64,000 nucleotides of DNA from assembly GCA_003209195.1 (NCBI GenBank), contig QCSF01000002.1, positions 1 through 64,000 on the forward strand, given 5' to 3'. Source of the stretch: Pelagibacteraceae bacterium AG-470-E16 (GTDB lineage: Bacteria > Pseudomonadota > Alphaproteobacteria > Pelagibacterales > Pelagibacteraceae). A program made the translations under genes and the position numbers. The notes under the pieces are model-generated. The model did not search any database. It saw only the letters and a program-made list of their open reading frames with translations, and was not told the DNA's origin. This document shows, piece by piece, positions 5,535 to 9,193 of this stretch (the stretch's first letter is position 1; each line of letters starts with the position of its first letter).

Positions 5535-5611
<77 letters not shown>

Positions 5612-5769: not shown

Positions 5770-5815
5770 CAGGCTCATAACCTAAAGGTCCTTGGTTCAA
5801 ACCCATGCCCCGCAA
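5770..5815 (+). pseudogene. Degenerate 3' fragment of tRNA-fMet (candidate attachment-site remnant)
   Basis: The 46 bases match positions 5563-5608 of tRNA-fMet at 43 positions (differences G to A, T to C and A to T). The upstream half of the tRNA is not recognisable, so this cannot form a cloverleaf. Together with the intact tRNA it brackets about 160 bp carrying the decamer repeats, as expected for the residue of an excised or decayed element that had integrated into tRNA-fMet. It overlaps the 3' end of the antisense VTC-domain gene and supplies that gene's last codons and stop. Confidence 0.85.
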
Positions 5816-6404
5816 TTAAATTATTAGTTGTTAATTTTATACCTTCGCAATATTTTGAATACCTTGTAATTCTTGCTCCAAATAAAGATTGATAAATTGT
5901 TGAATTATCATTTATATTTTTTTTAATTTCTAAAACACTAATATTAGATTTATATGAGTTTAAAATTTTAGTCGCTCTGTTTAACGCGGAGTATTTTATG
6001 TTTGTATCCAATGTAAATCTTGAATTATTTTTGTAGGCAAAATATTGTCTTTTATAAGTTACAAACAATGTTGGTATCAATTTCTCTTTTGATATTTTGT
6101 ATATAATTTTAGATAACAAAGACTTATCTTTTACATTTACCTCAATTATTTTTTTTTTTGAGAAGAAAGTATTCTTATTCTTAATTTCTAATTTACCTTT
6201 GTTGAAATCATCGTCATACCACCTAAATCTTATTTTTTTTCTTGGAGTTATACCTTCTTCACTAAACATAAAAAATTCTAAATTACTTTTATCAAAATAG
6301 ATAGAATTTATAATTCTACTTTTATAAATTTTTACTAAATCTAAATTTTTAGTATTTCGATAATGATCTAATACAGAACCCAACACTTTAATTTCATTTC
6401 TCAC
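5775..6404 (-). CDS. VTC-domain protein (CYTH-like polyphosphate-polymerase fold) with tRNA-derived C-terminus
   Basis: VTC domains form a basic tunnel that, in yeast Vtc4, synthesises polyphosphate from ATP. This 209-aa protein shows the expected alternating charged strands: RNEIK at the N-terminus, Arg30 with Tyr36-Phe-Asp38, KIRFRWY at 57-63, LEIKNK at 72-77, TYKRQYF at 116-122, TLDTNI at 131-136, LEIK at 158-161, and SKYC at 183-186, which closes the domain. The start is GTG at 6404. Residues from about 198 onward (HGFEPRTFRL-like tail) are the antisense translation of the tRNA-fMet fragment, so the natural C-terminus was probably lost there. It is the last gene after DUF4956 and CotH-like genes, a trio known from many bacteria. 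Its product's reaction in bacteria is not established. Confidence 0.8.
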   Translation of the reverse strand: MRNEIKVLGSVLDHYRNTKNLDLVKIYKSRIINSIYFDKSNLEFFMFSEEGITPRKKIRFRWYDDDFNKGKLEIKNKNTFFSKKKIIEVNVKDKSLLSKIIYKISKEKLIPTLFVTYKRQYFAYKNNSRFTLDTNIKYSALNRATKILNSYKSNISVLEIKKNINDNSTIYQSLFGARITRYSKYCEGIKLTTNNLIAGHGFEPRTFRL

Positions 6405-6417
6405 TAGATATCACTTT

Positions 6418-8517
6418 CTAATTATAAATAATTCTTGAATATTTATCATGATAATTATTAATACATTGATTAAAATTACTAATATAAATTGATCCGCCAT
6501 CAAATTCTTGTTTTTTTTTATAGCTTGATAAGCATTTTTTTATATTAAAATTAATCAAGTTTTTTATTTTTGTTGAAGAAGAGTCTTTTGTTGCTATTGC
6601 CAAGTTAGAATCTTTAACGTTAATATTAATTGCCTCTAATACAGATTTTTCGCCAACAGATATAGCCTTATCACCACAACCTGCTAAAAAAGAACTATTA
6701 ATTTTGTAGTGACCATATGAAAAATCTACGCAATCATTTTTAGCATTTATAATTGATAAATTTTTTATGTTAATTCTCGAAAAATCAATATCTAATGCAT
6801 CAGATATTGCATTTTTAATAATAATATTTTTTATAGAGCCTTCAGAACGAATAATATTTAATGAATCTTCACATTTTAAATTTGAAATATTAAAGTCTAT
6901 ATTTTGAAAATTAGAATCCAAAAAAGTTATACATCCTGTTAAGTTGTTTTCATCTAATCTATCGAAATTTTTTTTATAAGACTTTTCTTTATCATTAGCA
7001 AATATTTTCAAATTTTTTGGGATATCACCAAGAAAAATAATTTTTCCATTTGCGCTGTTAGCAAATTCTAAATTAATAAATTTTACGTTTGGTGTGATTT
7101 TAGCGAATACGATTGTATTTTCTTCAATTTTATAAAATATTTTATTATTATTAAATATAGTTTTAATTTTATTTTTTTTATCGAGATTATAATTATTATC
7201 GTAATGTACAATGTCATAAATATAATTTTTTGGTTTATTGGACGCTCCAAGAATTTTTTTCAAATTCTTAAAGTTTTCATTAATATAACAATTGGTTTTA
7301 AAATTTGTATTCTCGCAATATTTAAATTTATATTTATGAATATCAAAAGATAGGAAATTTTGTTTATATTCAAATTTATTATCATTTATTTTAGTATTAT
7401 TATAAAAACCATTAAAGGGATATTTTCTTTCAAAACTATAAGTTAAGTCAATATCTTCAAACGTTGGTTTTGTAAAAAAAAGATCTGGTTGATTTAGATA
7501 TTCTTTAGCAACGCACTTTTGTATTTTGCTTAGGCTGTAACCAGCTCTATATTTGTAAATTCTACTTAAATAATTTTCATAATCGCTCACGTTAAAATTT
7601 ACGTTATTACATTTTTTATGATAATTTTTATTAATATTTACATCACCATCATAATAAATTGGAATTTTTATATTATAAATTGGGTCATATACAAACTTTG
7701 AATTTTTATGATGTAATCCATGCCCAGCAAGTGTTTTATTAAGTTCGAAGAATTTTTTATAATTATAATAATTATTTGAAACTATACCTTTAAATCCGAT
7801 TACTGCTGAATTAAAATCTTTTATAAATTTTTGATTATCAACTTTGCTTGAATAATAAATTGAGTTAATAAATTTTTGAAAACATACTGAAACATTATTA
7901 TTTTTTTTTACACAATTACCTTGTAATTTTTTAAACTGATCAAAATTTCCCTCAATAATTGGTGCATCTTTCATCGACCATCTTTCAAGAAATTCTTTTG
8001 CTACTTTTTCCTGAAATATCATAGGATAATATTCTTGATTTATTTTAACATTTACAATGCTTGTGTGTGGTGTGGGGTAATTCATTGTTTCTAGAAGAGA
8101 TGTCCAAAAAATTTCATTTTCAAAACCTTTAGAAACTAGTTTTAATAATCTAAATCTTGTAATATTTTCAATATGACCATTTTTTAGTTTAATAACTAGT
8201 GAGGAAAATCCCCTTCTAAAATCAATATGATCTACACTATGTGATGCAATTTTTGCTACAGCATTTATTTTTTTGCCTTTATAAACTACTGTTACATCAA
8301 ATTTTTTTTTATCTTCTAAAAAAACTTTATCTCTACCTGATATATTAGATAAATGTTTGTAATATTTTTTTAAATTATTTCTATCAAAGTGAATTTCAAT
8401 TTTTTTTTCTAATTTAGTATCATACCTTTTGTCGTAAATTTCAGCATTTAATTGAAAAATAAATGTTAAAAAAATAATTAAATTAAATAATGCTATTTTG
8501 TTTATTTTATCTATCAT
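6418..8517 (-). CDS. Secreted CotH-like protein with C-terminal parallel beta-helix
   Basis: The 699-aa protein begins with a Sec signal peptide (hydrophobic residues 8-22, likely cleavage after LNA at 25). Residues about 60-330 resemble CotH-family atypical kinases: HIDFRRGFSSLVIKL around 97-111, FQEKVAKEF around 168-176, HGLHHKNSKFVYDP near 266-279 and IYYDGDVN at 287-294, matching the position of the family's catalytic acidic loop. Residues about 480-690 consist of short repeating strands rich in Ile, Asn and Ser (IKNIIIKNA, IKNLSIINA, LEAININV), as in right-handed beta-helices. Known CotH proteins phosphorylate secreted proteins; whether this one does is unknown. It overlaps the DUF4956 gene by 11 bp. 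Confidence 0.72.
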   Translation of the reverse strand: MIDKINKIALFNLIIFLTFIFQLNAEIYDKRYDTKLEKKIEIHFDRNNLKKYYKHLSNISGRDKVFLEDKKKFDVTVVYKGKKINAVAKIASHSVDHIDFRRGFSSLVIKLKNGHIENITRFRLLKLVSKGFENEIFWTSLLETMNYPTPHTSIVNVKINQEYYPMIFQEKVAKEFLERWSMKDAPIIEGNFDQFKKLQGNCVKKNNNVSVCFQKFINSIYYSSKVDNQKFIKDFNSAVIGFKGIVSNNYYNYKKFFELNKTLAGHGLHHKNSKFVYDPIYNIKIPIYYDGDVNINKNYHKKCNNVNFNVSDYENYLSRIYKYRAGYSLSKIQKCVAKEYLNQPDLFFTKPTFEDIDLTYSFERKYPFNGFYNNTKINDNKFEYKQNFLSFDIHKYKFKYCENTNFKTNCYINENFKNLKKILGASNKPKNYIYDIVHYDNNYNLDKKNKIKTIFNNNKIFYKIEENTIVFAKITPNVKFINLEFANSANGKIIFLGDIPKNLKIFANDKEKSYKKNFDRLDENNLTGCITFLDSNFQNIDFNISNLKCEDSLNIIRSEGSIKNIIIKNAISDALDIDFSRINIKNLSIINAKNDCVDFSYGHYKINSSFLAGCGDKAISVGEKSVLEAININVKDSNLAIATKDSSSTKIKNLINFNIKKCLSSYKKKQEFDGGSIYISNFNQCINNYHDKYSRIIYN

Positions 8518-9166
8518 GAAATGAATAGCTCTTGATAATTATGGATGAAAATTGAGTTAATTTTTTTTTAAAAGTTTTCGCTTCATCTTTATTGTTAAAT
8601 TTTAAATATATATTTGTATCAAAATCGTCGTTATTTCTTTCTTCATCATAGCTTATTAAATTTTTATCAATATTTATTTCGTTTGTTAACTTTTCAAATT
8701 TTCCATTTATTTTTAAAATAACCTCAATATATTTTTGATCGTAAGAATAATCACTTAAAAAAATGTTTAATTTTAGAGATGAAATTAATTTAGTAAAAAA
8801 ACCAATAAATATTATGAACAAAGTTAACCCAATAGAATATTTTATATTCACACCTGCAGAAATTCCAATCGTAATTAAAGCAAATAGTAATGATAGTTCA
8901 TAAATACTTTTTACTGGAGTCCTGTAACGTATAATTGATAATGCTCCTATCATGCCTAATGACAGAACTATATTCTTAGAAATTACAGTAGTTATCACTA
9001 AAGCAATCGGTGGTAACATCATTGACGTAACAATAAAACTTCTGTTTCTTAAATATTGATGCAGAAAAAAACTGTGAGATAAAAAGATTAATGTTCCCAT
9101 AGTTGAAACTAATAAAAGTTTTAAAATAATAAGTTCTTGAATTTTTTCAAAAATAACTGTCAGCAT
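8507..9166 (-). CDS. DUF4956 integral membrane protein
   Basis: The protein has several transmembrane helices in its first ~125 residues followed by a soluble, charged C-terminal domain of about 90 residues. The hallmark of DUF4956 is present at residues 71-86 (GMIGALSIIRYRTPVK), in the loop after the third membrane segment. The start was set at ATG 9166; a TTG at 9184 would add six residues. DUF4956 genes habitually sit beside VTC-domain and CotH genes, exactly as here, but no biochemical function is established. Its end overlaps the CotH-like gene by 11 bp, implying translational coupling. Confidence 0.85.
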   Translation of the reverse strand: MLTVIFEKIQELIILKLLLVSTMGTLIFLSHSFFLHQYLRNRSFIVTSMMLPPIALVITTVISKNIVLSLGMIGALSIIRYRTPVKSIYELSLLFALITIGISAGVNIKYSIGLTLFIIFIGFFTKLISSLKLNIFLSDYSYDQKYIEVILKINGKFEKLTNEINIDKNLISYDEERNNDDFDTNIYLKFNNKDEAKTFKKKLTQFSSIIIKSYSFHDR

Positions 9167-9193
9167 ACTATTAAAATAATACAATATATTTTA

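Follow-up and report, generated by a model that had tools for sequence, protein, structure and literature searches.

What does a cluster of genes for a VTC-domain protein, a CotH-like protein, and a DUF4956 membrane protein do in a SAR11 bacterium? We addressed this question in Pelagibacteraceae bacterium AG-470-E16, using a window (the whole stretch of DNA that was analyzed) of 64,000 nucleotides from contig QCSF01000002.1 of the incomplete 969-kb assembly GCA_003209195.1. Three open reading frames occupy positions 5775-9184 of its minus strand, with the coordinates that an earlier, sequence-only reading of this DNA had given them; the genes for DUF4956 and the CotH-like protein share 11 bp, and a 13-bp gap lies between the latter and the VTC gene. 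That reading had proposed that the trio makes or anchors a polyphosphate-like or phospho-modified surface structure. The explanation that we favor, at somewhat less than even odds (a probability of about 0.45), is that the trio forms a membrane-bound unit that synthesizes and exports polyphosphate and includes a secreted protein acting on the exported chain.

The tight coupling that had been claimed for the three genes holds across the SAR11 family. Of 297 SAR11-family genomes, 56 encode the CotH-like protein; the VTC protein is encoded in 51 of 287, and all 51 also carry the CotH-like protein. These 287 genomes contain 57 VTC matches, 55 of which have a CotH-like match no more than 4 kb away on the same contig, while one of the two unpaired matches is at a contig edge and the other is without a detected partner. 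Among 42 loci examined, all three genes are present in all but two (L060 and L063), which are without DUF4956 because both end at a contig edge. The gene order is mostly DUF4956, CotH-like, VTC, sometimes DUF4956, VTC, CotH-like, and in one case divergent. The trio, including the beta-helix described below, also occurs in two families outside SAR11, one represented by three genomes (L104-L106) and the other by one (L108). The coupling of the three genes is not a matter of chance.

The VTC protein (209 residues, 5775..6404, minus strand, GTG start) is a putative cytosolic polyphosphate polymerase. It matches PF09359 with an E value of 7.2e-24 and 85.1 bits (cutoff, 23), and a profile of 22 SAR11 copies matches yeast Vtc4 (3g3q) with an E value of 6.5e-12. 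Residues R2, E4, K6, K57, R59, R61, E73, K75, K84, R119, R129, D133, E159, K161, and K184 are invariant in these 22 copies. In an alignment with 3g3q and 5iiq, the protein keeps the basic tunnel residues, the metal Glu, and, in an SK(Y/F) motif, the equivalent of Lys-458, the catalytic Lys of Vtc4 (PMC4641920). Thus, both the VTC fold and the basic tunnel residues expected from the first inspection are in place. The window protein consists of the tunnel domain only, without an SPX domain, a Vtc1-type membrane domain, or a hydrophobic segment. Tunnel enzymes are functionally plastic (PMC4641920), and the VTC protein might instead be a tripolyphosphatase or nucleotide-binding sensor in a signaling module for envelope control, with the ACT-like domain on DUF4956 and the secreted protein as an outer pseudokinase receptor. 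The ACT/Lrp-like domain of DUF4956 and the divergence of the kinase-like domain, both described below, are in keeping with such a role. However, the VTC protein has RxExK rather than the full ExExK acidic motif of tunnel hydrolases and conserves the polymerase Lys, and a polymerase is a better fit to the pyrophosphatase link and the PPK1 anti-association reported below; we regard a signaling module as very unlikely.

The DUF4956 protein (225 residues, 8507..9184, minus strand) matches PF16316 with an E value of 1.9e-9 and 37.9 bits (cutoff, 30.6). Its model, with a predicted local distance difference test score (pLDDT) of 80, shows four to five membrane helices (residues 2-136, 8777-9181), which include an invariant GALS..R.R stretch, followed by an ACT/Lrp-like alpha-beta domain at the C terminus (residues 150-225, 8510-8737). 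The latter domain gives Z scores of 7 to 8 to ACT, Lrp, and NikR domains and fills the list of Foldseek matches to the model. The Streptococcus intermedius homologue has been described as MgtC plus ACT (PMC12345266), and the domain architecture of the window protein agrees with this description; in a Pfam scan of the window protein, MgtC appeared only at an E value of 0.21. The DUF4956 protein may act as a channel.

The third protein (699 residues, 6418..8517, minus strand) is predicted to be secreted. Its hydrophobic segment at residues 4-25 lies in a signal peptide of approximately residues 1-25 (8443..8517), with cleavage likely near the LNA-E junction, and a comparable N-terminal segment opens nearly all homologues, which supports the secreted status assigned to it earlier. 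The closest named relatives are in Pelagibacter single-cell-type genomes (L002 and L003), which places the window genome in SAR11. A Pfam search of the protein returned no family up to an E value of 1, so a curated match to PF08757 was not reached; an NCBIfam scan gave no usable match, and PDB sequence searches with alignments A1 and A4 gave no meaningful match. Because these direct searches were uninformative, the CotH assignment needed fold and profile-profile comparisons. In an AlphaFold model built with 28 homologues (mean pLDDT, 75.6; predicted template modeling score, 0.78), residues 36-345 (7483..8412) adopt the CotH kinase fold, a span that includes residues 60-330, for which a kinase-like fold had been proposed. 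The top two Foldseek matches in the PDB are Bacillus cereus CotH kinase structures 5jda (E value, 4.5e-6) and 5jd9, VIA-align gives a Z score of 16.6 to 5jd9 over 263 residues, and hhalign against CotH gives 98.4% with an E value of 1e-14. Trio homologues in L059, L104, and L108 lie above the Pfam cutoff for PF08757, and the CotH-like identity of the protein is thereby confirmed.

The claim that this protein is a kinase fared less well. Its His266 (7720-7722) aligns with the catalytic D228 of Bacillus subtilis CotH, a position that is His in at least 90% of the sequences in A1, and the D228Q substitution inactivates B. subtilis CotH (PMC7821199). Asp290 (7648-7650), at the position of CotH D251, is invariant in 28 SAR11 sequences, as are E170, K174, and E175 in the same half of the protein. 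The positions of D228 and D251 on the B. cereus chain were taken from the motifs NFD and WD, 23 residues apart, by sequence and profile alignment alone. Since a near-invariant His takes the place of the catalytic Asp, the label of secreted kinase appears doubtful. The window protein thus shares with the CotH spore-coat kinases (PF08757; 5jd9/5jda) the fold of residues 36-345 and the D251-equivalent Asp but differs from them in the D228-equivalent His, in an added beta-helix of approximately 250 residues, and in not reaching the Pfam model. In L052 (10682-12292), a second secreted CotH-like protein of 536 residues, without a beta-helix, is encoded directly upstream of DUF4956.

The beta-helix that had been suspected after residue 480 is predicted over residues 446-699 (6421..7182). 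It is right-handed and parallel, has a pLDDT above 90 over most of residues 520-690, and gives VIA-align Z scores of 17 to 19 against alginate epimerases, polygalacturonases, and tailspikes; in the L108 homologue, PF13229 scores above its own cutoff. In the 28 SAR11 sequences, 41 columns are invariant; the beta-helix accounts for 32 of them and the CotH part for 9, or 18.7 invariant residues per 100 in the beta-helix core (residues 520-690, 6448-6960) and 2.9 per 100 in the CotH half. The core carries a ladder of charged and polar residues at the same place on successive turns (D551/D573/D595/D616 and N554/D576/D598/S620, with D578, K617, E623, K644, D645, K668, and K669). These residues recur across SAR11 subfamilies and two lineages outside SAR11, because of which the stacked Asp/Lys ladder is read as the probable signature of a working surface. 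The beta-helix had been taken for an extra of this locus that might bind surface polysaccharide. We found it throughout the SAR11 trios, in three divergent subfamilies, and in the two non-SAR11 lineages; it is the constant and most conserved part of the CotH-like protein in SAR11 trios and not a local add-on.

Right-handed beta-helix carbohydrate enzymes (alginate epimerases, polygalacturonases, and pectate lyases) have the same fold and also stack charged residues on their turns. The window protein differs from them in having no sequence family match and in its distinct ladder (D..D.D, ND..D.S, GDK..S.GE, KD.S, and KK), which among the proteins found here is seen only in trio-linked ones. The NTD/DD/GHG/RIK order of GH28 loosely resembles SD..D.D/ND/GDK/xxK, but the key residues differ, and we do not claim membership. 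A scan of viral contigs with the beta-helix gave two weak matches (26%, E value of 2e-5), which were taken as generic beta-helix similarity, and plasmid and phage records contained no homologue of the 699-residue protein.

The genes that accompany the trio are a new line of evidence for chemistry on phosphoanhydrides beyond the inner membrane. A soluble family-I pyrophosphatase (PF00719) is present in 5 of 297 SAR11-family genomes, and each of the five copies belongs to a trio locus. In G212 and G067 it forms a C-terminal extension fused to the CotH-fold/beta-helix protein, in G262 and G109 its gene immediately follows VTC, and in G077 its gene lies between CotH and VTC. The fusions (L052, 7023-10025; L053, 6122-9109) come from two genera and contain a full-length family-I enzyme, which in L052 keeps the DGDPxD site and aligns over its full length with solved enzymes. 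The separate pyrophosphatases carry their own signal peptides, and those in the fusions follow the signal peptide of the secreted protein, so both kinds are expected outside the inner membrane. A short C-terminal stretch in L017 and L044 resembles a pyrophosphatase remnant. In addition, secreted calcineurin-like phosphoesterases (PF00149) flank the trio in L064, in L052, and, outside SAR11, in L106; in the L064 operon, the phosphoesterase is beside the trio and a pyrophosphatase is at the operon end. The phosphoesterase type found in L061 was present in 4 of 12 genomes searched, always linked to the trio, and the other eight were trio carriers without it and trio-less genomes. Of the phosphate-polymer hypothesis in the sequence-only reading, the phosphate link is strengthened by the pyrophosphatases, secreted or fused and confined to the trio, and by the repeated presence of secreted phosphoesterases, while its kinase part is not sustained.

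The trio also tends not to share genomes with the polyphosphate kinase PPK1, which is found in 9 of 51 VTC-positive genomes and 118 of 236 others. In this comparison, which ignores descent, 9 of the 287 genomes have both genes, 42 have VTC only, 118 have PPK1 only, and 118 have neither (p = 1.9e-5); for near-complete genomes, the corresponding counts are 4, 12, 67, and 39 (p = 0.006).

If VTC and DUF4956 delivered polyphosphate to the periplasm and it replaced ATP there as the donor of the CotH fold, the trio might phosphorylate the cell surface, with the beta-helix gripping a glycan or protein target and the pyrophosphatase removing the short leftover chain and pulling the reaction forward. 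Secretion into an ATP-poor compartment, the two fusions of pyrophosphatase to the CotH-fold polypeptide, a beta-helix of a type known from polysaccharide enzymes, and a CotH fold that keeps D290 and the invariant E170, K174, and E175 are all in line with this proposal. The near-invariant His266 at a position where D228Q kills B. subtilis CotH, and the low density of invariant residues in the CotH half relative to the beta-helix core, make it unlikely in our view.

We favor polyphosphate synthesis and export because the layout of the trio resembles that of yeast VTC, with a polymerase inside, a membrane partner, and phosphate-polymer hydrolases outside. In yeast, the complex synthesizes polyphosphate on the cytosolic side and feeds it into a lumen where polyphosphatases reside (PMC12668673, PMC10657179). 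In the mechanism that we infer for SAR11, VTC, on the cytosolic side of the inner membrane, would build polyphosphate from the gamma-phosphate of ATP, and DUF4956, with its four to five membrane helices and a cytosolic ACT/Lrp-like domain, would be the channel or a ligand-gated regulator of it. In the periplasm, the CotH-fold/beta-helix protein would bind and act on the chain or transfer it to an envelope acceptor; the charged ladder may serve as its principal surface for activity or binding, with the CotH fold as a phosphate-binding partner. In some lineages, periplasmic pyrophosphatases and phosphoesterases would clear the breakdown products. Like yeast VTC with luminal Ppn1/Ppn2, the trio combines tunnel polymerase residues, a membrane partner, and phosphate-polymer hydrolases across the membrane. 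It differs from yeast VTC in being without SPX and without a Vtc1-like part, in having another membrane protein, and in its additional CotH-fold/beta-helix protein, so that it may work alike but is no member of that complex.

Several observations weigh against this explanation. Tunnel enzymes that share the same core can be tripolyphosphatases (PMC4641920). The membrane helices of DUF4956 had no informative PDB match, and no similarity was detected between this protein and the Vtc1-type membrane part of the yeast channel. The phosphoesterase beside the trio in L060, L061, and L066 is degenerate, having lost canonical metal ligands (GNHD to GNNE and GHxH to GNSK). The pyrophosphatase, present in only 5 of approximately 56 trio-bearing genomes, is optional, and in the window genome neither it nor the L061-type phosphoesterase was found. 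The anti-association with PPK1 takes no account of descent, and nine genomes carry both genes. Finally, deletion of the VTC homologue alone in S. intermedius left aggregation intact, with no effect on the amount of Pel polysaccharide singled out (PMC12345266).

That last result concerns a setting in which the same families were already known. CotH, polyphosphate polymerase, and DUF4956 genes have been described beside Gram-positive pel operons, adjoining pelDEADAFG in streptococci, clostridia, and bifidobacteria (PMC7112168). Loss of either SIR_1592 (the DUF4956 homologue) or SIR_1594 (the CotH homologue) by deletion changes Pel amount and aggregation in S. intermedius (PMC12345266). The earlier statement that the trio has no assigned function was therefore nearly right, these deletion phenotypes being the qualification. 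By analogy, the SAR11 trio might tune the synthesis or retention of an exopolysaccharide, with the beta-helix binding or processing the glycan and VTC and DUF4956 in a supply or regulatory role. The window trio lies among glycosyltransferase, sugar-epimerase, and DAHP-synthase-type/cytidylyltransferase genes, and several other loci have glycosyltransferase-like neighbors. However, trio flanks vary widely, and many SAR11 trios are among housekeeping genes (nadA-type and fumarase genes in L003; ketol-acid reductoisomerase and isopropylmalate-synthase-type genes in L067/L069/L071; a pnp-type gene in L036). No pel gene was seen among the Pfam-typed neighbors in the window and several other loci, although the bulk of the flanking genes were classified by clustering or visual inspection only and no genome-wide search for pel was made. 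The exclusive pyrophosphatase link would also go unexplained, and we consider a polysaccharide accessory role possible, although rather unlikely.

The SAR11 proteins resemble the Gram-positive Pel accessory proteins (SIR_1594, SIR_1593, and SIR_1592 in S. intermedius) in comprising a secreted CotH fold, a VTC-type protein, and a DUF4956 protein with an MgtC-like membrane part and ACT. In contrast, the C-terminal domain of the secreted protein is a conserved beta-helix in SAR11 and FN3 in the Pel-linked proteins, the SAR11 neighbors that were typed do not include pel, and links to pyrophosphatase or phosphoesterase have not been described for the Pel loci. According to a 2025 study, CotH/VTC/DUF4956 synteny was not found away from Pel loci (PMC12345266), but it exists in SAR11 and in two other lineages, with a different and highly conserved C-terminal domain.

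The surroundings of the window trio also suggest how it arrived. An intact tRNA-Met gene (5535..5611, plus strand; ARAGORN and Rfam RF00005) adjoins the trio, and 160 bp downstream of it is a 46-bp copy of its 3' half with 3 mismatches (5770..5815, plus strand; 2 matches in the window and 0 in 100 shuffles). This copy overlaps the VTC stop region, and the C-terminal 12 to 13 residues of VTC (AGHGFEPRTFRL) are encoded through it. Together, the gene and the copy look like the remnant attachment site of an island. Of 42 trios, 9 have a tRNA gene, of one of several kinds, no more than 300 bp away, and these data fit an accessory cassette that enters at tRNA sites. None of the three trio proteins matched PADLOC or PHROGs profiles (defense and phage) at an E value of 0.01.

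Additional genes were observed in some trios. In a third trio subfamily (L065, L070, and L073), a gene for a membrane-anchored protein of 340 to 349 residues, for which the L070 member gave no clear Pfam match, lies between DUF4956 and CotH. The L108 genome has a second trio (L107, G333:C8, 1839-7566) with a CotH protein that carries lamin-tail and chitobiase-C-like domains, VTC, DUF4956, and an HlyD-type membrane-fusion protein. In L104 (12106-12906) and L105 (1075-1872), outside SAR11, an Apyc1/metallo-beta-lactamase-type phosphodiesterase gene directly follows VTC.

We know of no established machine for bacterial polyphosphate export. On a bolder version of the polyphosphate proposal, which we offer tentatively and think rather improbable as a whole, the periplasm would be acidocalcisome-like: VTC would drive polyphosphate through a DUF4956 channel, the CotH-fold/beta-helix protein and its pyrophosphatase and phosphoesterase helpers would hold, anchor, or release phosphate, and the system would replace PPK1 in part of SAR11, a candidate for the SAR11 periplasmic phosphate buffer at least in trio-bearing lineages. 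Such a buffer has been reported, its mechanism unexplained, in work according to which bacterial polyphosphate is not made in the periplasm (PMC4525184, PMC7250820). The link to it is possible but limited, both because of that statement and because the trio is present in only approximately one-fifth of SAR11 species. The trio described here lies apart from Pel genes as far as its neighbors were typed, comes from a group that ranks among the most abundant ocean bacteria, and has one conserved secreted partner; its exclusive tie to pyrophosphatases predicted to be periplasmic makes a vague phosphate-related guess concretely testable. If the proposal is true, it would bear on how phosphorus-starved SAR11 cells keep phosphate outside the inner membrane.

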